DNA of 64,000 nt. Source: an uncultured Lachnospiraceae bacterium (GTDB lineage Bacteria > Bacillota > Clostridia > Lachnospirales > Lachnospiraceae). The position numbers and the translations under genes are program-made. Under the pieces are notes generated by a model that did not search any database, was not told the DNA's origin, and saw only the letters and a list, made by a program, of their open reading frames with translations. Location of the stretch: assembly GCA_947626745.1 (NCBI GenBank), contig CANQTF010000005.1, positions 62,001-126,000 of the forward strand. Direction: 5' to 3'. This document shows positions 15,201 to 62,471 of the stretch, in pieces. Each line of letters begins with the position of its first letter. The first letter of the stretch is position 1.

Positions 15201-16756
15201 GCGGCGCCGGCTGCGACATGCCGGACAAGAAGTGTCCTGTCTGCGGCGAGCCGCTCCGAAAAGAAGGCTTTGACATCCCCTTTGAGACTTTCCTCGGATT
15301 TAAAGGCGACAAAGAGCCGGATATCGACCTGAATTTTTCGGGCGAGTACCAGAGCAAGGCGCACAAGTACACGGAGGTGATCTTCGGCAGCGGACAGACG
15401 TACCGCGCCGGTACGATAGCCACGCTGGCGGACAAGACCGCTTTCGGCTATGTCAGGAAATATTATGAGGAGCGCGGCAAACATAAGCGGGTGTGCGAGA
15501 TCAACCGCATCGTCACGGGCTGTACCGGCATCAGGCGGAGTACGGGACAGCACCCCGGCGGCATCGTCGTGCTGCCGGTGGGGGAGGACATCAACTCCTT
15601 TACCCCGGTGCAGCACCCGGCGAACGACATGACGACGGACATCATCACCACGCACTTTGATTATCATTCCATAGACCACAACCTGTTGAAGCTCGATATC
15701 CTCGGACACGATGATCCGACGATGATCCGTATGCTGCAGGACCTGACGGGGATCGATCCCGTCGCCATACCGTTGGACGATCCGGGCGTCATGTCCCTCT
15801 TTTCCTCTACGGAGGCGCTCGGCATAACGCCGGATCAGATCGGCGGGTGTAAGCTGGGCTGTCTTGGCATACCGGAGTTCGGCACGGACTTTGTGATCCA
15901 GATGGTCATTGACGCGAAGCCCAAATGCTTTACGGACTTGGTGCGCATCTCGGGGCTGTCCCACGGGACGGACGTGTGGCTGGGAAATGCGCAGACGCTG
16001 ATCGAGGAGGGCAAGGCGACTATCTCCACGGCGATCTGCTGTCGTGACGATATTATGATCTATCTGATCCAGATGGGCGTAGACCCGGCGCTCTCCTTCA
16101 CGATCATGGAGAGCGTGCGCAAGGGCAAAGGACTGAAGCCGGAGTGGGAGGAGGCCATGCTGGCGGCCAATGTGCCGGACTGGTATATCTGGTCCTGCAA
16201 GAAGATCAAATATATGTTCCCGAAAGCCCATGCGGCCGCCTACGTCATGATGGCGTGGCGCATCGCATACTTCAAGATCAACTATCCGCTCGCCTATTAT
16301 GCGGCTTATTTCAGTATCCGCGCCTCGGCGTTCTCCTACGAGCTGATGTGCCAGGGACAGGCGCATCTAGAGGCTCTTATGGCGGACTACAAGCGCAGGA
16401 GCGACACGCTGTCCAAGAAAGAACAGGACACCTATAAGGATATGAAGATCGTGCAGGAAATGTATGCGAGAGGATATGATTTTGTGCCGATCGATATTTT
16501 CAGGGCGCAGTCCCGCGCGTTTCAGATCGTGGACGGCAAGCTGATGCCCTCTATCGACAGCATCGACGGCATCGGGCAGCAGGCCTCGGACGCTATCGTG
16601 GAGGCGGCGAAGGACGGCCCGTTCCTCTCCAAGGACGATTTCAGGCAGCGCACCAAGGCGTCCAAGACAGTGGTGGATCTGATGAGCGATCTCGGGCTTT
16701 TAGGGAATCTGCCGGAATCCAACCAGATCAGCCTGTTTGATTTTGTGGGCGCGTAA
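12215..16756 (+). CDS. polC: DNA polymerase III PolC-type, alpha subunit with built-in proofreading exonuclease
   Basis: The 1513-residue replicative polymerase of low-GC Gram-positives. Order of domains: an N-terminal domain with a variable Arg/Pro linker near residues 200-250, an OB fold near 270-360, the PHP domain beginning around 382 (VELHCHTKMSD), a DEDD exonuclease inserted at about 488 (VVFDIETTGLSP) to 650, the rest of PHP, a four-Cys zinc module around 977-1018 (CPKCHYYDF and CPVCGEPL), and the catalytic Asp motif EPDIDLNFSG near 1035. It ends with the fingers and helix-hairpin-helix region. All key motifs are present. In most relatives rimP follows directly; here about 7 kb intervene. 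Confidence 0.98.
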   Translation: MARMSKKFFEVFPTLKLDTGLSDLYEQTTVDKVSSTRRKDFLRIYISSDRLIQKEDIFRVEGEIKKQFFPNAPVTVKLYERFHLSAQYTPRKLTDIYRDSILAELRAYSPVEYSMFKNADIAFEEDDRLLLTVEDTVPGRSRAEELLRILEKIYHERCGLAVDIQIAYKEKAEGKYRKEDERRIAMQVAEISARAGYRTPMTGAAAHEERDNIITPDINDAGSTPEETRRTTRRQPAQPGGARERQPEAKRPLKRSDAPDVVYGRDFDEEAMPMSDIIGEMGEVVIRGRIIHTDERDIRNERTILFYDVTDYTDTMTIKIFVQNEQKDEITGAIGMGSFIKVKGVAATDKFDNELTIGSIAGIKKIPDFTVSRTDTSVRKRVELHCHTKMSDMDGVSEAKDIVKRAYQWGHPAIAITDHGVVQAFPDANHVWEDLWKEEKNRRKEAGDPDPDKQDFFKVIYGVEAYFVDDLHEIATNEKGQDFGQDFVVFDIETTGLSPVENRIIEIGAVKVQGGRITDRFSVFVNPEVPIPFEIEKLTSIRDDMVVDAEKIESVLPAFLAFSEGCMLVAHNAEFDMSFITENCDRQGIRHDFTYVDTMNLARVMLPGQSRHTLDAVAKTLGVSLQHHHRAVDDAEATAEIFVKLIAMMEKDGITTLRQINEKGKASPDIIKRLPTYHGIILAKNNVGRMNLYRLVSMSHLAYYARRPRIPKSLLNQYREGLIVGSACEAGELYRALLEGKSETEIARLVSFYDYLEIQPLGNNKYMIASDRLPNINSMEDIMEVNRKVVRLGEQFRKPVVATCDVHFLNPEDEIYRRIIMAGQGFPDADDQAPLFFRTTEEMLGEFAYLGSDKAEEVVITNTNLIADMIECMSPVRPDKCPPVIEDSDRQLTEICYNRAHELYGETLPKIVEERLEKELHSIISNGFAVMYIIAQKLVWKSVEDGYLVGSRGSVGSSFVANMAGITEVNSLSPHYLCPKCHYYDFDSEEVRAYSGGAGCDMPDKKCPVCGEPLRKEGFDIPFETFLGFKGDKEPDIDLNFSGEYQSKAHKYTEVIFGSGQTYRAGTIATLADKTAFGYVRKYYEERGKHKRVCEINRIVTGCTGIRRSTGQHPGGIVVLPVGEDINSFTPVQHPANDMTTDIITTHFDYHSIDHNLLKLDILGHDDPTMIRMLQDLTGIDPVAIPLDDPGVMSLFSSTEALGITPDQIGGCKLGCLGIPEFGTDFVIQMVIDAKPKCFTDLVRISGLSHGTDVWLGNAQTLIEEGKATISTAICCRDDIMIYLIQMGVDPALSFTIMESVRKGKGLKPEWEEAMLAANVPDWYIWSCKKIKYMFPKAHAAAYVMMAWRIAYFKINYPLAYYAAYFSIRASAFSYELMCQGQAHLEALMADYKRRSDTLSKKEQDTYKDMKIVQEMYARGYDFVPIDIFRAQSRAFQIVDGKLMPSIDSIDGIGQQASDAIVEAAKDGPFLSKDDFRQRTKASKTVVDLMSDLGLLGNLPESNQISLFDFVGA

Positions 16757-16795
16757 CAGAAATCCGCTGGAAAAATTTCCCGCTGTTACAGTTAT

Positions 16796-16842
16796 AAAAA
16801 TGCCGTTGAGTTTGACTTAAAACATGATATACTATAAATAAC
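16796..16842 (+). promoter_or_regulatory. Promoter of the Rpn nuclease gene (copy 1 of a duplicated promoter)
   Basis: TTGAGT (16806-16811) and TATACT (16828-16833) are spaced by 16 bases. The whole 47-base block recurs at 17952-17998 with only five differences, all inside the spacer between the two hexamers, so both hexamers are preserved. Confidence 0.7.
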
Positions 16843-16881
16843 CGCAGGGTTTCTGCGGCGATCACCAAACGAGGATCATAC

Positions 16882-17754
16882 ATGAGCAACAAGGCGAGAA
16901 TCCGCGAAGAGGCGAAAAAACTGAATCCGATCGACGATCTGATGTTCCGGACAATGGCGGAAGATGAAAAATTCTGTGAGGAGATCCTGCGGGTCATTCT
17001 TGGCGACGCCGCACTGACCGTTCTGGAATCGACAGCCCAGTATGCCGGGACCAATCCGCAGGGACGCTCCGTTATCCTTGATGCGAAATGCGTGCTGGGA
17101 GACGGAAGAAAGATCGACATTGAAGTGCAGAGAGCCGACGACGATGACCACCAGAGACGTGTGCGTTACAACGGCGCTGTCCTTACGACAAACATCACCG
17201 ACCCCGGCACGAAATTTAAGGATGTCCCGGATGTATGTGTCGTCTTTATCTCCCGTTTCGACATGTTTCACGGCAATCTTCCCTTGTATCATGTAGACCG
17301 TGTTATAAGGGAAAACGGCCAAGTGGTCGATAACGGTTTTGAAGAGATCTACGTCAATGCCAAAGTCAAAGACGGATCGGACGTATCGGAACTGATGGAA
17401 GTATTCGTCAACGATACTGCCTACAACAATAAATTCCCTATCACATCCGGCAGCAAACGCCGGTACAAGGAGACGGAGGAGGGTCAGCAGACTATGTGCG
17501 AGATTATGGACAGGATTGCCAGAGAAGAACGCAGCGAAGGCCGTGAAGAAGGACGCAGGGAAGGGCGCAGGGAAGGACGCAGGGAAGGGCGCAAGGAAGG
17601 GCGTAAGGAAGGACGGATTGAAGGAGTAGCCCGTATCAACAGGCTCAACTCCATTCTGATCGATCTGGGCAGATTTGACGACATGAAACGCGCCGCCAAG
17701 GACCAGGCGTATCAGGCGCAGCTGATACTCGAACTTCTGCCTGAGGAAGCGTAG
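16882..17754 (+). CDS. Rpn-family PD-(D/E)XK nuclease (recombination-promoting nuclease/putative transposase), full length
   Basis: A 290-residue Rpn/YhgA-type nuclease. The N-terminal part (about 1-180) carries the nuclease fold: [11 protein letters not shown], then [18 protein letters not shown], where Asp and Glu-x-Gln form the active-site signature of this family. Residues about 218-249 are eight tetrapeptide units of the (R/K)EGR type, encoded by 12-base tandem repeats, followed by a short conserved helical tail. A strong ribosome binding site (GGAGGAGGG, 17475-17483) lies ten bases before an in-frame ATG at 17494, so an 86-residue C-terminal product is probably translated separately. 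In E. coli such intragenic products (RpnS) inhibit the toxic full-length protein (RpnL) and the pair acts against phage; the same role here is inferred. Confidence 0.85.
17494..17754 (+). CDS. Putative intragenic antitoxin (RpnS-like C-terminal product of the Rpn gene)
   Basis: This in-frame internal reading frame starts at ATG 17494 ([12 protein letters not shown]), ten bases after GGAGGAGGG, a far stronger site than most in this window. The product would be 86 residues: a short helix, the 12-base-repeat-encoded charged segment, and the conserved tail [15 protein letters not shown]. The site and the ATG are both conserved in the detached copy at 18.6 kb, where no nuclease domain remains to explain them. 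Separate translation is inferred from sequence only. Confidence 0.5.
17533..17628 (+). repeat. 12-base tandem repeats in the Rpn tail, eight units
   Basis: Eight in-frame units of 12 bases encode [12 protein letters not shown] x3, KEGR x2 and IEGV. The detached copy at 18658-18717 has five units; the 36-base difference is exactly three units, so the number varies without shifting the frame. Confidence 0.85.
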
Positions 17755-17768
17755 CTACGAACCCGACA

Positions 17769-17810
17769 GATCCGGTGTGTTCCAAGAACGAATGCACCGG
17801 ATCTTTTATT
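17769..17810 (+). terminator. Rho-independent terminator after the Rpn gene
   Basis: GATCCGGTG (17769-17777) pairs perfectly with CACCGGATC (17795-17803), leaving a 17-base loop, followed by TTTTATT. It lies 15 bases after the Rpn stop codon. Confidence 0.75.
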
Positions 17811-17812
17811 CC

Positions 17813-17904
17813 CGCGAGCAATGAGCCAAGTGCCGTGCTTGCACGAGCATTTGGCGAATGCCGCGAGGGTCAAATACCCCGTCAGCTTGCTGCGGGGTAT
17901 TTGA
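17813..17904 (+). repeat. Structured two-hairpin element, copy A
   Basis: The 18-base block CGCGAGCAATGAGCCAAG (17813-17830) and the 17-base block TTTGGCGAATGCCGCGA (17850-17866) are identical to blocks of copy B at 49.7 kb. They pair into one stem: CGCG/CGCG, a bulged A, GC/GC, an internal loop with apposed GA/GA, then GCCAAG/TTTGGC. The inner 19 bases form TGC-CGTG, loop CTTG, CACG-(A)-GCA. A second hairpin follows, TCAAATACCCCG (17870-17881) with CGGGGTATTTGA (17893-17904), perfect over 12 pairs. With 17905-17951 this accounts for the noncoding stretch 17755-18055. I cannot name the element. Confidence 0.75.
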
Positions 17905-17951
17905 TTTATGCCATACACAACTTTTTCCTCCTCTGTAAGCACTTCCATGTT

Positions 17952-17998
17952 AAAAATGCCGTTGAGTTTGGGGGAAATCATGATATACTATAAATAAC
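17952..17998 (+). promoter_or_regulatory. Second copy of the Rpn promoter, now in front of the toxin-antitoxin pair
   Basis: This block aligns without gaps to 16796-16842 and differs at five positions, all between the -35 (TTGAGT) and -10 (TATACT) boxes. It lies 57 bases before the antitoxin start. It marks the left end of what remains of a second Rpn gene copy. Confidence 0.7.
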
Positions 17999-18055
17999 AA
18001 TGTATGCAGACTATATATGGAGCAAACGATATGTTGTTATAAGAGGTGGTAAGCT

Positions 18056-18271
18056 ATGAGCAGCAGAGAAAAAGTAATGCAATTATTAAATGTAATCGAT
18101 GATGAAAAAATGGTTTATGTTCTCAATATTTTAGAGAATTTAACGTGCTTTGCAGAAATCCCAAACAGTGAGACGATTGCAGCTTTTCATGAGGGTGATG
18201 ATATGTTGGCAGACGGAACAGGAAGAAGATACAGCAGTACATCGGCTCTTTTTGCTGATTTAGAGGCATAG
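18056..18271 (+). CDS. Type II antitoxin partner of the YafQ-like toxin
   Basis: A 71-residue acidic protein encoded one base before the toxin gene, the usual arrangement for a RelB/DinJ-type antitoxin. The N-terminal half is helical (REKVMQLLNVIDDEKMVYVL), and the C-terminal part (NSETIAAFHEGDDML to SSTSALFADLEA) resembles the toxin-wrapping tails of RelB-like antitoxins. No ribbon-helix-helix DNA-binding pattern is obvious, so autoregulation is uncertain. AGAGGTGG precedes ATG 18056. Codon use is markedly AT-richer than the neighbouring genes, which suggests acquisition from elsewhere. Confidence 0.75.
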   Translation: MSSREKVMQLLNVIDDEKMVYVLNILENLTCFAEIPNSETIAAFHEGDDMLADGTGRRYSSTSALFADLEA

Positions 18272-18272
18272 G

Positions 18273-18545
18273 ATGTTAGAAATCACACCCACCGGCCAAT
18301 TTAAGAAAGACTTTAAAGCATGTAAAAAACGCGGTTATGACATGGAACTGTTGCAGCAGACTATAGATATTTTGGCAATCCCGGCATCATTGCCGGAAAA
18401 GAATAAAGACCATCGTTTAATAGGAAATTATATCAATAAACGAGAGTGTCATATCATGCCGGATTGGCTGCTGATATATCGTATAGAAAATAGCAGACTC
18501 ATATTATATAGAACCGGCACACATGCAGACTTATTTAACGAATAA
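18273..18545 (+). CDS. YafQ-family mRNA interferase toxin (type II TA)
   Basis: A 90-residue RelE-superfamily ribosome-dependent mRNase. It has the YafQ signature almost complete: QFKKDFKACKKRGYDM at the N-terminus, DHRLIGNY, RECHIMPDWLLIYR and YRTGTHADLF at the C-terminus. The His and Asp residues that serve in catalysis in YafQ (DH, CHIMPD, THADLF) are all present, so the toxin looks active. It starts one base after the antitoxin stop. The base composition is AT-rich like the antitoxin. The toxin gene ends 14 bases before a near-identical repeat of the Rpn tail begins. Confidence 0.88.
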   Translation: MLEITPTGQFKKDFKACKKRGYDMELLQQTIDILAIPASLPEKNKDHRLIGNYINKRECHIMPDWLLIYRIENSRLILYRTGTHADLFNE

Positions 18546-18559
18546 AACCGGTAGGAATC

Positions 18560-18843
18560 TCCCTATCACATCCGGCAGCAAACGCCGGTACAAGGAGACG
18601 GAGGAGGGTCAGCAGGCTATGTGCGAGATTATGGAAAGAATTGCCATGGAAGAACGCAGCGAAGGCCGTGAAGAAGGACGCAAGGAAGGGCGTAAGGAAG
18701 GACGGATTGAAGGGGTAGCCCGTATCAACAGGCTCAACTCCATTCTGATCGATCTGGGCAGATTTGACGACATGAAACGGGCCGCCAAGGACCAGGCGTA
18801 TCAGGCGCAGCTGATACTCGAACTTCTGCCTGAGGAAGCGTAA
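18560..18843 (+). repeat. Direct repeat of the Rpn 3' end (copy 2; copy 1 at 17435-17754)
   Basis: Copy 1 and copy 2 start at TCCCTATCACATCCGG and run to the stop codon. Apart from the loss of three 12-base units, I count about eight to ten substitutions in 284 bases. Together with the promoter copy at 17952 it shows that a second Rpn gene once stood here and that its promoter-proximal 560 bases are now the toxin-antitoxin module. Confidence 0.9.
18619..18843 (+). CDS. Stand-alone Rpn C-terminal fragment (orphan RpnS-like protein)
   Basis: This frame encodes only the Rpn tail: MCEIMERIAMEE, five EGR-type units, then [15 protein letters not shown] and [10 protein letters not shown], 74 residues. 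GGAGGAGGG at 18600-18608 is ten bases before ATG 18619, exactly as in the full-length gene. The frame is open upstream to ATG 18523 inside the toxin gene, but the residues there have no counterpart in Rpn before position 18560. It may be a decaying remnant or a functional free inhibitor of the neighbouring nuclease; the intact start site and frame favour expression. Confidence 0.6.
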   Translation: MCEIMERIAMEERSEGREEGRKEGRKEGRIEGVARINRLNSILIDLGRFDDMKRAAKDQAYQAQLILELLPEEA

Positions 18844-18855
18844 AATCTATATATA

Positions 18856-18891
18856 TGACCAAGTTTCACGGTTTCTTGGTCACGATTTTTT
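18856..18891 (+). terminator. Rho-independent terminator closing the Rpn/TA region
   Basis: TGACCAAG (18856-18863) pairs with CTTGGTCA (18875-18882), with an 11-base loop, followed by CGATTTTTT. It separates the toxin region from the surface-protein gene. The rest of 18892-19063 shows nothing else clear apart from AAAGGAGG before ATG 19064. Confidence 0.75.
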
Positions 18892-19063
18892 CACAATTTT
18901 TCTGAATATGGCTATTGATTTGGGACGGCGGCGGTGATAAACTTTTCTGGATATGAGTATGTTCGTGCAGCGCAGCCCCGGCGGCTGCGGCAGAATGATT
19001 ATTTTGGGATAAGCAGATCCGGCGGGCCAAAGGACCGTCGGCTCTGTAAAGGAGGCTCTTACA

Positions 19064-19447
19064 ATGCGGTATCGGATCAGACAATATCTTGCGGGCTTAC
19101 TTGCCGCAGCGCTGATGATCGCCATGCTGCCTGCGGCGGCATTTGCGGAGGACGGCGCGGGGAAAGACGCCCCGGCACAGGTGCAGGAGTGGATCGACGC
19201 CCTTCCGGCTGCGGAGGAGATCACGGCGGAGAACCGGAGCGAAGTGAGAGGGCAGCTGGACGCCATAGAGGCGGCGATGGGAGAAATGACGGAGGAGGAA
19301 AAGGCGACGCTGGATACCGCCCGGTATGAGGCGGCGTCCGCAGCCCTGTCTGATACGAACGGTGAGGGAGAGCCGGGCGGCACGGAGACGGACCCGGACG
19401 ACGGTTCGGGAAACGATGCGAACGGGGGGGGGCACAGACCCCGCTGA
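19064..19447 (+). CDS. N-terminal fragment of a surface protein: signal peptide and first helical module (frameshifted at G9)
   Basis: This 127-residue frame starts after AAAGGAGG with a clear signal peptide (MRYRIRQYLAGLLAAALMIAMLP, cut near AAAFAED). It continues with a helical module (VQEWIDALPAAEEITAENRS to DTARYEAASAAL) and a Gly/Asp-rich linker. It then runs into nine G residues (19424-19432) and stops a few codons later (HRPR). The linker composition (TDPDDGSGNDANGG) continues seamlessly as GTDPADGDIGTDPGDGD in the other frame, so the true gene is 19064-23594 with one G fewer. The protein would then be about 1509 residues. Confidence 0.8.
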   Translation: MRYRIRQYLAGLLAAALMIAMLPAAAFAEDGAGKDAPAQVQEWIDALPAAEEITAENRSEVRGQLDAIEAAMGEMTEEEKATLDTARYEAASAALSDTNGEGEPGGTETDPDDGSGNDANGGGHRPR

Positions 19448-22400
19448 CGGCGATATAGGCACAGACCCCGGTGACGGCGATCCGGGCACGGATCCCGACA
19501 GTGATATGGGCTTGGACGGCGGCTCCGGTACGGATCCGGATAGCACCATAGATCCGGACAGCGTCACGGCTCCGGGCGCGAATGAGGAAATTCTGGCGCG
19601 GGTGCAGGAGCTGATCGACGCCCTTCCGGCTGCGGAGGAGATCACGGAGGAGAACCGCGCGGAAGTGCAGGAACAGTTGGAGGCCATAGAGGCGGCTCTG
19701 GGGGAGCTGACCGACGAGGATAAGGCTATGCTGGACCTTGCCCGCTACGATGCCGCCGCCGCAGCGCTGTCCGCCGTACACAGGCCGAGGCGGAGACAGA
19801 GCGCGGCGAGGAACGGCTCTGTGTCGTATCTGGACGCAAACGGCAGGACGCAGACCTGCTCTGCCTATACGACGGTCTCGAATCAGACCGAATGGAACGG
19901 CGGCTGGTATGTCCTGGAGGGAAACGTTACCATCTCCGACCGGATTGAGGTAAAGGGCGACGTCAGTCTGATTTTGGCGAACGGCTGCACCCTGACGGCG
20001 AGCAAAGGCATTGGTGTGAAAGAGAATAACAGCCTGACAATTTATGCCCAGTCTGCGGATGAGGGGACCATGGGGGCGCTGAAGGCGGGGCCTGGTGATA
20101 AGCGGTTCGCTGGGATTGGCGGCAGCGAGAGTGATAGTGGGGGCACAATTACGATCAACGGGGGCTGTGTCACCGCAACGGGAGGCTCGCAAGCCGCAGG
20201 GATCGGCGGCGGAAGCAGTGAAGGTGGCGCTGGCGGTATCATCACGATCAACGGGGGTTCCGTTACTGCAACAGCCAATGATGGCGCCGGGATCGGCGGC
20301 GGATACTGTGGAGACGTCAAAAACGGAGCGCAGGGCACAATTACGATCACCGGAGGCATCGTCAGTACCAACGGTTGTATTGGAGACGGGCTTAATGCCA
20401 GTGGCAGCACGGTCACGATCAGCGGGGGCTCTGTCACCGCAAAGGATATCAGAGTCAGTACATGGGGTGGCTTGACGGGCACCTTCTCCACCGGCACAAA
20501 CGGAAAAGCCGTGCTCCATATTTCCAATAGTATTTGGGATAAGAAAAATAAGAGCAGTTGGAGCGGCATTATTTTTGAGGGAAATGAGGGTCAGGTGTAC
20601 GGCACGCCGACACCCGACTTTAATTTTGAGGTAAAGAGCGGGGAGACGCTGAACGTGCAGAAAGATCATCCGCTGCACATCGCAAGCGGCGTAACGCTGA
20701 CCAACAGGGGCGTCATCCGTGTCGGCAGCGAGGATGACTATGACGGTACACTCACGAATGACGGGTCGGTCGTCAATGAGGGGACCATCGACGTCTGGGG
20801 ACCGCTCACCTATGGCGAGACGAGGATCAACAACCAAAACGGCGGTCAGATCATCTATCATCTCAATCTGGATATTGCCGCGCCGAGCTTTGCGGATGCG
20901 CCCTACGGTTCGCAACCGTCCGCGCAGACGGTTAGGATGACGAATAACAACAGGAACGAGGTCACGATCTCCAAGGTGGAGATTTCGGGGCAAGATAAGG
21001 ACAGCTTTGCGTTCGAGAATACGGGCAGCGCGAACAAAAGTCTGGCCGTGGGCGTCACCGACACATCCTGGACGATCCGGCCCAAAGCGGGTTTGGACGT
21101 CGGAACATATCAGGCGGAAGTCACCGCCACTTATCAGAGCGACGGCACTGACAGAACCTCCACGGCGGAACTGTCCTTTACTGTCACGAAGGCGGAGCCT
21201 ACGGTCACGGCAGCGGCTGCCCGAAAGGGCGGCGGGGCGCCGACCTACGGAGACGACATCACCCTCACCGCCACGGTGAGCGCGTCGGGGAGTATCAAGG
21301 AGGGCGATCTGGTCAATGCGGACAGCAAGGTGACTTTTTATGTCGACGGCACACAGCTGGGCGATCCCGTGCCGCTTACCAAAGGGGGAACGGCCGGACA
21401 GGGCACGGCGTCCCTGGAGATAGCCGGTACGTCCCCGGAGCTGCGGCACAGGCTGTTTGGGGAGAGCGGGAGCGTCTCTGTCACTGCCGTATACAGCGGG
21501 AATGGGAAGTTTGAGAAGGAGAGCAGCGGCGCCGCGGTCGTGAACGTGGCAAAGCGGGAGCTGCGTTACACGGTCACCGCCGCAGATAAGACATACGACG
21601 GGAGCGCGGCGGTAGAGGTCACGCTGCAGCCGGAGGAAGTTTTGCAGGGCGACACCGTGACCCTTACGGCGACAGGCAGCGTAACCATGCCAACAGGCGG
21701 CGCGGCCGGGAAGAAGGCGGGGGACGTGGGAGAATATACGACGGTTCGTCTGTCCGACATCCGGGCGGGCGGTGCGGACGGGAAGTATTACAAGCCTGTC
21801 GTCCCCGCGTCCGACGTGACGCTTACAGGGTCCGTCAACATCGGCATGGCAAAGGCACAGGCCGCGGCCGCTCCCACGGAGAACGAGTTGACCTACAACG
21901 GCTCATGGCAGACGCTGGTGACTGCCGGAAAGGCCGAGGGCGGCGTCATGAAATATTATGCGGGTGCAGAAGCGCCGGCTGCAGACAGCGCCGACTGGCA
22001 GGAGAGTGTCTTGGCCCTCACGGGACAGGACGCCGGGGACTATACGGTCTGGTACTATGTGGACGGCGACGCCAACCACACAGACACAGTCCCTGTATCC
22101 CTTACCGTCACGATCGATCGGGCAGAGCCTGTTCTGTCTGTCGCGCCCGTGCCGGCTGTATTGACTTATGACGGCACGGATCAGGCACTGGTGACGGCGG
22201 GAACGGCGGCGGGAGGCAGTCTGCGTTACTATGTGGGCCAAGAAGCCCCGGCGGGAGGCAGCGCGGCCTGGAGAACAGAGAGCGCGGCTGTCACGGGCAG
22301 GAATGCCGGTACCTACACGGTCTGGTACTATATTGTGGGCAGCAAAAACTATAAGGACAGCGCCGTTTCATACGTCACCGTCACCATCGGCAAGGCGGAG

Positions 22401-23594
22401 GGGGAGGGCAGCGTCTCCATGAAGGGCTATTCCTGCAATGACGACAGCGTGGAACCCGAAGCGGACTCCCGGACCAACGGCACAGGGAATGTGACCTTCT
22501 CCTATAAGGAAGAGGGGCAGCCCGACACGGCGTACAGCGGAAGCAAGCCTGTCACGGCAGGAAGCTATACGGTCAAGGCGGTGTTTGGGGAGACGGGCAA
22601 TTACAAGGCGGTTACAGCGACGGCGGACTTTACCGTCACCCACCGTTTCGACGGCGACTGGCAGAAGGATGCGGACGGGTATCTTCACGGCTGTTCCTGC
22701 AGTACCGATCTGCGCCTGTTGGAGAGCGGACTGACCGAGGTGCCGGATGGCCTGAAAGGGAAAGAAGGACTGGACAGCGTGGAGCAGATCGCCGCCGCGC
22801 TGCGCCAGGAGGCCGGGAAGGCGGGCGTCGCGGCATCGGCGGGCAACAGCGCCATCTATGACGTGAAACTCCAGAGCAGGAAAAGCGGCGCGGACTGGGA
22901 AGAAGTGACAGAGGAGGACTTTCCTGAGGAAGGGATCACCGTCAGACTGCCTTATCCTGCCGGAACGAACGCCCGCTATGCCTTTACCGTGATCCACATG
23001 ATTGCAAGCGGTCCCGACGCCGGGCAGACGGAGAGACCGGCGGTCGTTAACGGTGCGGAGAATATCAGCTTTACGGTGAAGAGCCTGTCGCCTTTCTGCG
23101 TCGTCTGGACAGCGCCGCCGGAGAGCCGGGACGAAGACGAGGATACGGAGTCGGAACAGGAGAACGGTATCGCCGATAGGCAGTACGCAGCGCCTCTGCA
23201 GACGGCAGCGGAGCCGGAGCAGGAAGAAGCCGTTCCTGAAGGGGCGGAAGAGAGCTCAGCCGTTAAGGGCGGTAAGACACAGAAAGGAGCCGGAGCGGGA
23301 GAGTCTGCCGCGGTCAGCGGTAACGGGATCGAAGAGAGCGGCAGGGTCGATGCAGCCGCACAGACGGAGACGGCAAAAGACGGCGGGGTGATGAAAAACG
23401 GGGGAGACGACGGACAGCCGGAGGTATCAGGCAGCGCTTACGGGGACAGCCGTTTCTGGCGTTTCCTGCCGCTTGCGCTTCTGCCGGCGCTCCTTATCCT
23501 GATCCTTATTCTGCTGATCCTCAGAAAACGGCATGCCGACGGGGAAGATCGACGGGAAGAGGAGGAACGGATCGATTCTTTTGATAAGAAATAG
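19326..23594 (+). CDS. Main part of the repeat-rich surface protein: helical module, beta-helix and Ig/MBG-like domains, C-terminal membrane anchor
   Basis: The downstream frame of the frameshifted surface protein; its genuine sequence begins at the G tract, and ATG 19326 is only the first in-frame start. Order: Asp-rich linker, a second helical module (VQELIDALPAAEEITEENRA) nearly repeating the one in the N-terminal fragment, then a beta-helix region around 20.1-20.5 kb with repeated TINGGxVTATG and IGGG motifs. Next come several Ig/MBG-like units (LTYNGSWQTLVTAG, LTYDGTDQALVTAG, AGTYTVWYY) and a low-complexity stretch with AVSGNGIEESG. A hydrophobic helix (PLALLPALLILILILLIL) and basic tail close it. 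No LPxTG sorting motif is seen. The role is probably adhesion or surface display; the ligand is unknown. Confidence 0.8.
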   Translation: MRRRPQPCLIRTVRESRAARRRTRTTVRETMRTGGGTDPADGDIGTDPGDGDPGTDPDSDMGLDGGSGTDPDSTIDPDSVTAPGANEEILARVQELIDALPAAEEITEENRAEVQEQLEAIEAALGELTDEDKAMLDLARYDAAAAALSAVHRPRRRQSAARNGSVSYLDANGRTQTCSAYTTVSNQTEWNGGWYVLEGNVTISDRIEVKGDVSLILANGCTLTASKGIGVKENNSLTIYAQSADEGTMGALKAGPGDKRFAGIGGSESDSGGTITINGGCVTATGGSQAAGIGGGSSEGGAGGIITINGGSVTATANDGAGIGGGYCGDVKNGAQGTITITGGIVSTNGCIGDGLNASGSTVTISGGSVTAKDIRVSTWGGLTGTFSTGTNGKAVLHISNSIWDKKNKSSWSGIIFEGNEGQVYGTPTPDFNFEVKSGETLNVQKDHPLHIASGVTLTNRGVIRVGSEDDYDGTLTNDGSVVNEGTIDVWGPLTYGETRINNQNGGQIIYHLNLDIAAPSFADAPYGSQPSAQTVRMTNNNRNEVTISKVEISGQDKDSFAFENTGSANKSLAVGVTDTSWTIRPKAGLDVGTYQAEVTATYQSDGTDRTSTAELSFTVTKAEPTVTAAAARKGGGAPTYGDDITLTATVSASGSIKEGDLVNADSKVTFYVDGTQLGDPVPLTKGGTAGQGTASLEIAGTSPELRHRLFGESGSVSVTAVYSGNGKFEKESSGAAVVNVAKRELRYTVTAADKTYDGSAAVEVTLQPEEVLQGDTVTLTATGSVTMPTGGAAGKKAGDVGEYTTVRLSDIRAGGADGKYYKPVVPASDVTLTGSVNIGMAKAQAAAAPTENELTYNGSWQTLVTAGKAEGGVMKYYAGAEAPAADSADWQESVLALTGQDAGDYTVWYYVDGDANHTDTVPVSLTVTIDRAEPVLSVAPVPAVLTYDGTDQALVTAGTAAGGSLRYYVGQEAPAGGSAAWRTESAAVTGRNAGTYTVWYYIVGSKNYKDSAVSYVTVTIGKAEGEGSVSMKGYSCNDDSVEPEADSRTNGTGNVTFSYKEEGQPDTAYSGSKPVTAGSYTVKAVFGETGNYKAVTATADFTVTHRFDGDWQKDADGYLHGCSCSTDLRLLESGLTEVPDGLKGKEGLDSVEQIAAALRQEAGKAGVAASAGNSAIYDVKLQSRKSGADWEEVTEEDFPEEGITVRLPYPAGTNARYAFTVIHMIASGPDAGQTERPAVVNGAENISFTVKSLSPFCVVWTAPPESRDEDEDTESEQENGIADRQYAAPLQTAAEPEQEEAVPEGAEESSAVKGGKTQKGAGAGESAAVSGNGIEESGRVDAAAQTETAKDGGVMKNGGDDGQPEVSGSAYGDSRFWRFLPLALLPALLILILILLILRKRHADGEDRREEEERIDSFDKK
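19424..19432 (+). other. Nine-G homopolymer at the surface-protein frameshift (candidate phase-variation tract)
   Basis: G9 lies at the junction of the two frames. Removing one G (or adding two) joins signal peptide and body in one frame. It is the longest G run I noticed in the window and falls in a low-complexity linker where slippage is tolerated. A sequencing or assembly error in the homopolymer is the main alternative. Confidence 0.7.
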
Positions 23595-61701: not shown

Positions 61702-62471
61702 AATCTATGATAAACGGCTTTTTTATCGCCTTTTCCATGTACTCCAAGATCCCTGTGCCCAAGGCGGAGTGGAATCGGCAGAACATGAAGTACGCGCTCT
61801 GCTTTTTTCCGATGATCGGGCTTGTCATCGGCGCGCTGCTCTGTGCATGGGGGGAGTTCTGCGTCGTTTCCCGGCTGCATCTCGGAACGATGTGCTTTGC
61901 GCTGACCGGCGCTGTGATCCCTGTTATCATAACGGGTGGTATTCATCTGGACGGCTTTTTGGATACGATGGACGCCCTGCATTCTTATGAGTCAAAAGAG
62001 AAGAGGCTGGCGATCCTGAAGGATCCGCATGTGGGCGCTTTTGCGGTGATTGCGGCGATCTGTTATTTCCTGCTGTATGCGGCGGGGCTGCAGCAGATGT
62101 GTACAGAGAGCCAGTTTTTTCTCTTGGGCTTCGGGTTTGTCATATCCAGAGCCTTAAGCGGCATGAGCCTTGTATGGTTTCCGGCGGCAAAGAAGGAAGG
62201 GACGCTCTACACCTTCGCCTCCGCGGCGGACAGGAAGACGGTGCGCTCCGTGCTCGTCACGATCCTTGCGCTGTGTTTTGCCGGCGTGCTGTGGATCGAT
62301 CTTGTGACGGGGGCCGTCATGCTGCTTGCGTCGCTGTGGGTCTGGACATACTATTACTATATGTCGGTAAAGCGCTTCGGCGGCATTACGGGGGATCTGG
62401 CAGGATTTTTCCTGTGCCTGAGCGAGTTGTCGAGCGTTCTGGTGATTGGGTTCTTAGGGAATATTATGTAA
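61698..62471 (+). CDS. cobS: Adenosylcobinamide-GDP ribazoletransferase (cobalamin synthase)
   Basis: A 257-residue integral membrane enzyme that joins the lower ligand to adenosylcobinamide-GDP. Motifs: FFIAFSMYSKIPVPKAEWN, GGIHLDGFLDTMDALHSYES (metal-binding Asp residues) and ILKDPHVGAFAVI. Six or so hydrophobic segments cover the rest. The stop codon lies inside a TTATGTAAAC copy. It closes the cobalamin genes. Confidence 0.95.
   Translation: MKSMINGFFIAFSMYSKIPVPKAEWNRQNMKYALCFFPMIGLVIGALLCAWGEFCVVSRLHLGTMCFALTGAVIPVIITGGIHLDGFLDTMDALHSYESKEKRLAILKDPHVGAFAVIAAICYFLLYAAGLQQMCTESQFFLLGFGFVISRALSGMSLVWFPAAKKEGTLYTFASAADRKTVRSVLVTILALCFAGVLWIDLVTGAVMLLASLWVWTYYYYMSVKRFGGITGDLAGFFLCLSELSSVLVIGFLGNIM

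Follow-up and report, generated by a model that had tools for sequence, protein, structure and literature searches.

How does a toxin–antitoxin (TA) pair of one family come to lie between a promoter and a gene tail that both belong to another? This question is raised by positions 16796 to 18843 of the 64,000-nucleotide stretch analyzed here (the window: positions 62,001 to 126,000 of contig CANQTF010000005.1, assembly GCA_947626745.1, from an uncultured Lachnospiraceae bacterium), where a complete rpn gene is followed on the same strand by a second unit carrying a YafQ-type pair. Comparison of the two units with each other and with their relatives leads us to consider it fairly probable that this is a composite TA locus, in which the YafQ-type pair has taken over the place of the nuclease half in a second rpn unit, with an rpn-type promoter and a free-standing rpnS left in place. 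The published work on Rpn (PMC10327210) describes RpnS as an antitoxin of the nuclease RpnL that is translated from inside rpn, and reports separate downstream rpnS genes.

Two repeats and the DNA between them

The two units resemble each other at both ends. The rpn-type promoter block before unit 1 (16795..16842, + strand; TTGAGT-16-TATACT with TG before the −10 element) recurs before unit 2 (17951..17998, +), the copies aligning over 48 nt at 90% identity. As the earlier note had described, 16796-16842 and 17952-17998 differ at five of 47 bases, all in the spacer; these positions (16815-16818 and 16822) lie between the TTGAGT and TATACT elements. Both blocks are defined by alignment and by a score matrix (see below), and a consensus scan lists both. 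The duplication of the gene tail likewise holds, with 17435-17754 (320 nt) matched by 18560-18843 (284 nt, +), which starts at rpn codon 185 and differs by eight substitutions and 36 gap positions, the latter corresponding to three 12-nt units. Between these repeats, 561 nt in unit 2 (17999-18559) stand where unit 1 has 592 nt (16843-17434), again in agreement with the earlier description; the former has a GC content of 37%, whereas the nuclease half reaches 51% and the window as a whole 58%. No third tail was found in the window's own genome, a draft assembly of 49 contigs that is 83.5% complete.

Read from its sequence, unit 1 is an ordinary rpn gene, predicted to encode the nuclease RpnL and an internal antitoxin RpnS. 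The complete frame (16882..17754, +, 290 aa) matches Rpn models above their curated cut-offs (TIGR01784, 8.4e-19, 68.4 bits against 52.1; PF12784, 2.6e-8, 34.3 bits against 27.4), and D67, E81 and Q83, which we take to be the PD-(D/E)XK catalytic residues, are invariant in an alignment of ten homologues. Sequence comparison places the internal rpnS at 17494..17754 (+), with a conserved GAGGAGGG followed by ATG and with seven four-residue repeats. The scan lists a terminator-like hairpin with a 15-bp stem 3′ of the gene (17768..17804, +), and 3′ sequence resembling this region is also present after rpn in genome G072 and after the relic in G073 C9.

The toxin of unit 2 (18273..18545, +, 90 aa) is assigned to the YafQ family by its match to PF15738 (YafQ_toxin; 1.2e-33, 115.7 bits against a cut-off of 30) and to the solved structure of the mRNA interferase YafQ, 4ml2 (5.5e-16). 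It scores below the cut-off of the YafQ subfamily model TIGR00053 (67.3 against 87.25) and above that of the broader RelE_StbE model TIGR02385 (72.8 against 27.9), and it possesses H47, H60, D64, W65, H84 and F88, presumably the equivalents of the catalytic residues of E. coli YafQ. The 71-aa frame before it (18056..18271, +) has no Pfam or NCBIfam match, and is called a putative antitoxin because it lies 1 nt ahead of the toxin and because its relatives in G028, L125 and L123 adjoin a YafQ-like frame, which is shortened in L123. A relationship with DinJ was not found, the family-model searches giving no match at all.

On the + strand of 16500-19200 the consensus scan yields no promoters other than the two blocks, and a single terminator, the one after unit 1. 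It therefore finds no separate promoter or terminator inside 17999-18559, in line with the earlier note. As the scan totals for this range (four promoters and three terminators) are at the level of shuffled DNA (means of 3.2 and 3.1), the promoter reading rests on conservation rather than on the scan. A hairpin with a T-run 3′ of the second tail (18856..18891, +) has a loop of 11 and is hence unlisted. No Rfam structured RNA was matched up to E 0.5 within the same range, and six proteins searched against the PADLOC models gave no match up to E 0.1. A viral origin or spread of the locus was considered and rejected, as the viral contigs contained no relatives of the tail or antitoxin and no exact match to the joint or to the promoter pattern.

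Relatives of the promoter block and of the tail

For comparison we used 77 genomes of the same genus. Statements drawn from the nucleotide search of these genomes (query 16700-19120), and the counts of tail-only copies, apply among the matches listed; one tail search was limited to E 1e-8. Two promoter patterns found ten and nine sites, or 18 distinct sites (one in G039 belongs to both), and each of the 18 stands before an rpn gene, the relic of one, or this YafQ pair; a reversed control gave no matches. A stricter pattern found five sites, and the more diverged rpn block of G070 was missed by both patterns. The score matrix was derived from 11 blocks that precede rpn genes or their relics, with that of the window's unit 1 among them; it gives 54.0 for the window's rpn block and 42.4 for its YafQ block, compared with at most 9.3 in the rest of the window and 12.7 for the best non-block position in the window and 12 loci. 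Other YafQ-type blocks score 36.8 (G028) and 33.2 (G027), the block of G065 is rpn-type and scores 49.5, and the matrix finds no block at the distant YafQ relatives L123, L125, L091, L093 and L074.

According to the earlier note, the YafQ-type pair replaced the nuclease half of a second rpn copy and kept that copy's promoter. The pair does occupy the place of a nuclease half, with an rpn-type promoter ahead of it and an rpn tail behind, and G039, G048 and G007 show a similar replacement. The account of the promoter needs amending. In G028 a promoter-YafQ unit lies at another genomic place with no rpn tail after it, so the block belongs to the TA unit and is not only a relic of a local rpn copy. 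G027 has the block and the start of the antitoxin behind an upstream flank that looks like that of G028, the unit being cut by the contig end. Most likely, the YafQ pair acquired its rpn promoter in a single event and has carried it since, and the history of this promoter looks older than the local duplication. Moreover, the window's second block looks chimeric in its sequence, its left part being that of copy 1 and of the polC-side rpn block and its spacer resembling the YafQ-unit blocks of G027 and G028.

The earlier note had also called the sequence behind the toxin an orphan Rpn tail. It does stand without a nuclease, but it carries the ribosome-binding site (RBS) and start of rpnS, making it a candidate antitoxin gene beyond a mere remnant, and it is best read as a free-standing rpnS (18619..18843, +). 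Its predicted product is 97% identical to tail 1 and has four four-residue repeats; GAGGAGGG and the ATG are retained, and the second tail is therefore able to encode a 74-aa RpnS alone, from its own Shine-Dalgarno sequence.

Eleven tail-only copies were counted, namely those of the window, G048, G007, G047 and G006, two in G039 (A and B), the second copy of G072, G073 C9, G061 C21, and G454, which is from another genus. The count leaves out a small third fragment in G007, C-terminal pieces (35-48 codons) in G028 C49 and G029 C61, and free rpnS-like frames belonging to less closely related rpn kinds. Some other rpn kinds of the genus have free rpnS-like frames right behind rpn (L157:568-1625 and L158:28-2612), including one rpn-rpnS-rpn array.

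Seven of the 11 copies lie directly behind same-strand TA-like genes, or four of eight when independent joints are counted. The tail follows a PIN-like gene (a weak call, PF01850 giving 18.4 bits, below the cut-off of 23.6) and a 68-aa protein in G048, G047 and G006, both genes being damaged in the last, and the 68-aa protein alone in G007; the joint is common to all four. This tail begins at codon 185 in G048, with decayed versions in G047 and G006; among the 17 loci examined, no tail follows the PIN-like pair in G034, G015 and some others. G039 contains two TA modules in tandem rpn copies, whose repeats are 97-100% identical, indicating a recent event. In copy A an antitoxin-like gene and a truncated RelE/ParE-type toxin (15.4, below the ParE cut-off of 23) precede the tail; copy B has an antitoxin-like gene and a ParE-type toxin barely above that cut-off (23.6), and only the last 27 nt of rpn and the terminator remain. 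On the opposite strand, a Hol_Tox gene neighbors the G454 copy and a Schlafen AlbA_2 gene precedes that of G072, and no TA-like gene was seen beside the G073 C9 and G061 C21 copies. The relic in G073 C9 is interrupted by a copy of a dispersed repeat of ~110 nt.

Tail search queries started at codon 185, and the left ends of the copies were taken from the DNA itself. In window rpn coordinates they cluster at 17435 (window), ~17432 (PIN-like pair), ~17437 (G454) and 17428 (G073 C9), with others at ~17359, ~17386 and ~17278. We considered, and rejected, an internal transcription start of rpnS as the left end of the tail copies, since this is unsupported beyond the cluster itself and E. coli ypaA starts at the RBS.

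A tentative alternative accepts the same origin and sees in the second tail a dead scar, its free rpnS unmade or inert and heading for loss. This would agree with the decay of six of the 11 tail-only copies (G047, G006, G039 A, G039 B, the second G072 copy and G073 C9), from which it follows that tail retention is not generally selected, with a repeat number mismatched to the neighbor, and with differences too few to demonstrate constraint. Against it, the tails of the window, G048, G007, G061 C21 (which retains 52 nuclease codons) and G454 keep the Shine-Dalgarno sequence, the ATG and an open frame, and amino-acid changes are not in excess in the G048 copy (dN of 0.09-0.13 to four rpn tails, compared with 0.10 between two rpn tails). 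As to which half survives, the tail is kept by 13 of 13 close full-length nucleases among the matches listed, and in both G065 and G007 the TA antitoxin is kept while the toxin is truncated or gone. Retention of antitoxin parts where toxin parts are missing is what toxin–antitoxin logic would predict, although the broken tails count against it.

Several further observations weigh against our favored reading of an exchanged unit with a free rpnS. Free and neighboring RpnS are unequal in repeats in all three pairs examined, with four units against seven in the window, one unit fewer in G007, and one more in E. coli MG1655 ypaA (L209:4405-5502) than in rpnE; the free RpnS of the window thus does not match the neighboring RpnL in repeat number, a point that bears on cognacy only. 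Since inhibition was lost for E. coli RpnC when a single repeat was added (PMC10327210), the free RpnS may not act on its neighbor, and by this analogy it probably does not serve it. The two tails differ by 4.5 synonymous and 2.5 non-synonymous changes, which is weak evidence of constraint, and dN/dS was rejected as proof of function because the changes are too few. An rpn-type promoter is kept only with YafQ, the promoter region of the PIN-like unit in G048 scoring −2.0 and the TA units of G039 having no block above 6.2. Lastly, the YafQ-tail joint is known from one assembly only, and the RpnS tails have no match in the PDB by sequence.

States of the locus and their order

Simpler states of the locus exist in two relatives. 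In G073, polC is followed by the promoter and a single rpn, behind which comes the flank found after the second tail of the window; G065 has polC, an rpn-type promoter, the YafQ antitoxin, ten toxin codons and then the flank, without rpn. The uninterrupted tandem Rpn state that the earlier note envisaged was not seen, as none of the 77 genomes has a second close nuclease (13 close matches in 13 genomes). Recombination between the window's promoter blocks would yield the left side of G065, and between its tails the state of G073.

It is conceivable, although we doubt it, that the composite came first and that the simple states arose from it by deletion, through the promoter blocks with loss of rpn (G065) or through the tails with loss of the YafQ pair (G073). 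The structure of G073 and the left side of G065 fit such events. However, G065 also has no tail and little of the toxin, the same data can be explained by insertion into a simple ancestor, and among the matches listed from the 77 genomes the composite of promoter, YafQ pair and tail occurs only in the window's own genome.

An assembly artefact joining two strains or loci in one contig appears very unlikely. The draft state of the assembly and the repeats within the locus would permit it, but the tails differ by substitutions as well as by 36 nt, similar composites occur in other assemblies, and the spacer (17755-17950) contains the genome's only full copy of a dispersed repeat. This repeat (17804..17913, +; ~110 nt), identified through nucleotide searches, is matched in many genomes of the genus among the matches listed, and the window's genome has seven partial matches elsewhere. 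Finally, convergence of the two blocks on a consensus promoter, for which their −35/−10-like elements might be cited, can be set aside as extremely improbable, given that all 18 distinct pattern sites are tied to rpn, its relics or this YafQ pair, with no control matches, and that the distant YafQ relatives have no block.

Downstream of the locus, a gene at 19064-23594 contains a run of nine G (19424-19432) close to the point at which a signal-peptide-like frame (19064-19447) parts from a long adhesin-like frame (19326-23594). G073 and G065 (L063:3036, L064:2268) share this G9, and in them too the first frame ends early, which suggests programmed slippage or phase variation and not a chance error.

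A model for the composite locus and its place among known systems

We propose that the exchange probably came about through recombination at rpn units. In the case of the YafQ pair, the promoter blocks would have supplied the left homology, and the new right joint would have formed near codon 185. In this model a single RNA from the promoter at 17962-17989 would carry antitoxin, toxin and RpnS, the YafQ-like toxin would cut mRNA and be restrained by the 71-aa protein, and RpnS would bind and silence an RpnL of matching repeat number. A partial copy would survive only with its antitoxin retained, which would explain why loss falls on toxin parts. It is possible that regulation of the putative nested systems is linked. 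A broader and more speculative proposal, which we put forward with little confidence, is that rpn genes of this clade serve as sockets in which the toxin part is swapped again and again for unrelated TA modules (YafQ, PIN-like, RelE/ParE) and the intragenic antitoxin becomes the third gene of an operon. The interleaved order of promoter, tail, promoter, tail would then permit collapse to rpn or YafQ alone, and a free RpnS with shifted repeats would protect against other Rpn alleles, not against its neighbor.

The locus shares features with three known arrangements. Like Rpn (COG5464) TA genes that have an intragenic RpnS and a separate rpnS copy downstream, such as ypaA/rpnES of E. coli MG1655 (PMC10327210), it has a full rpn with an internal RBS and ATG, variable four-residue repeats, and a free rpnS downstream. 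In E. coli, however, ypaA abuts rpnE, whereas the window has a type II TA pair in the same orientation between rpn and the free rpnS, and homology starts 14 nt before the free rpnS ATG in ypaA, compared with ~60 nt here. As in YafQ-DinJ systems, a small gene comes first and 1 nt separates it from that of a YafQ-family toxin; unlike them, it has a putative antitoxin that fits no family model, a promoter of the rpn type, and rpnS as a third frame behind the pair. Tandem rpn arrays formed by direct duplication are also described in PMC10327210, and the direct tandem repeats of rpn segments in the window resemble them, except that where the nuclease part would be expected its repeat units bear other TA modules. 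We did not find an earlier description of such nesting in the parts of the open-access literature that were available to the search.

Intragenic antitoxins of the RpnS kind are a recent discovery, and this locus represents a natural experiment: the antitoxin half has been parted from its toxin and repeatedly joined to other TA modules. With it, one can test directly what makes free antitoxins persist or decay, whether specificity is determined by repeat number, and how TA systems are combined or replaced at one site.

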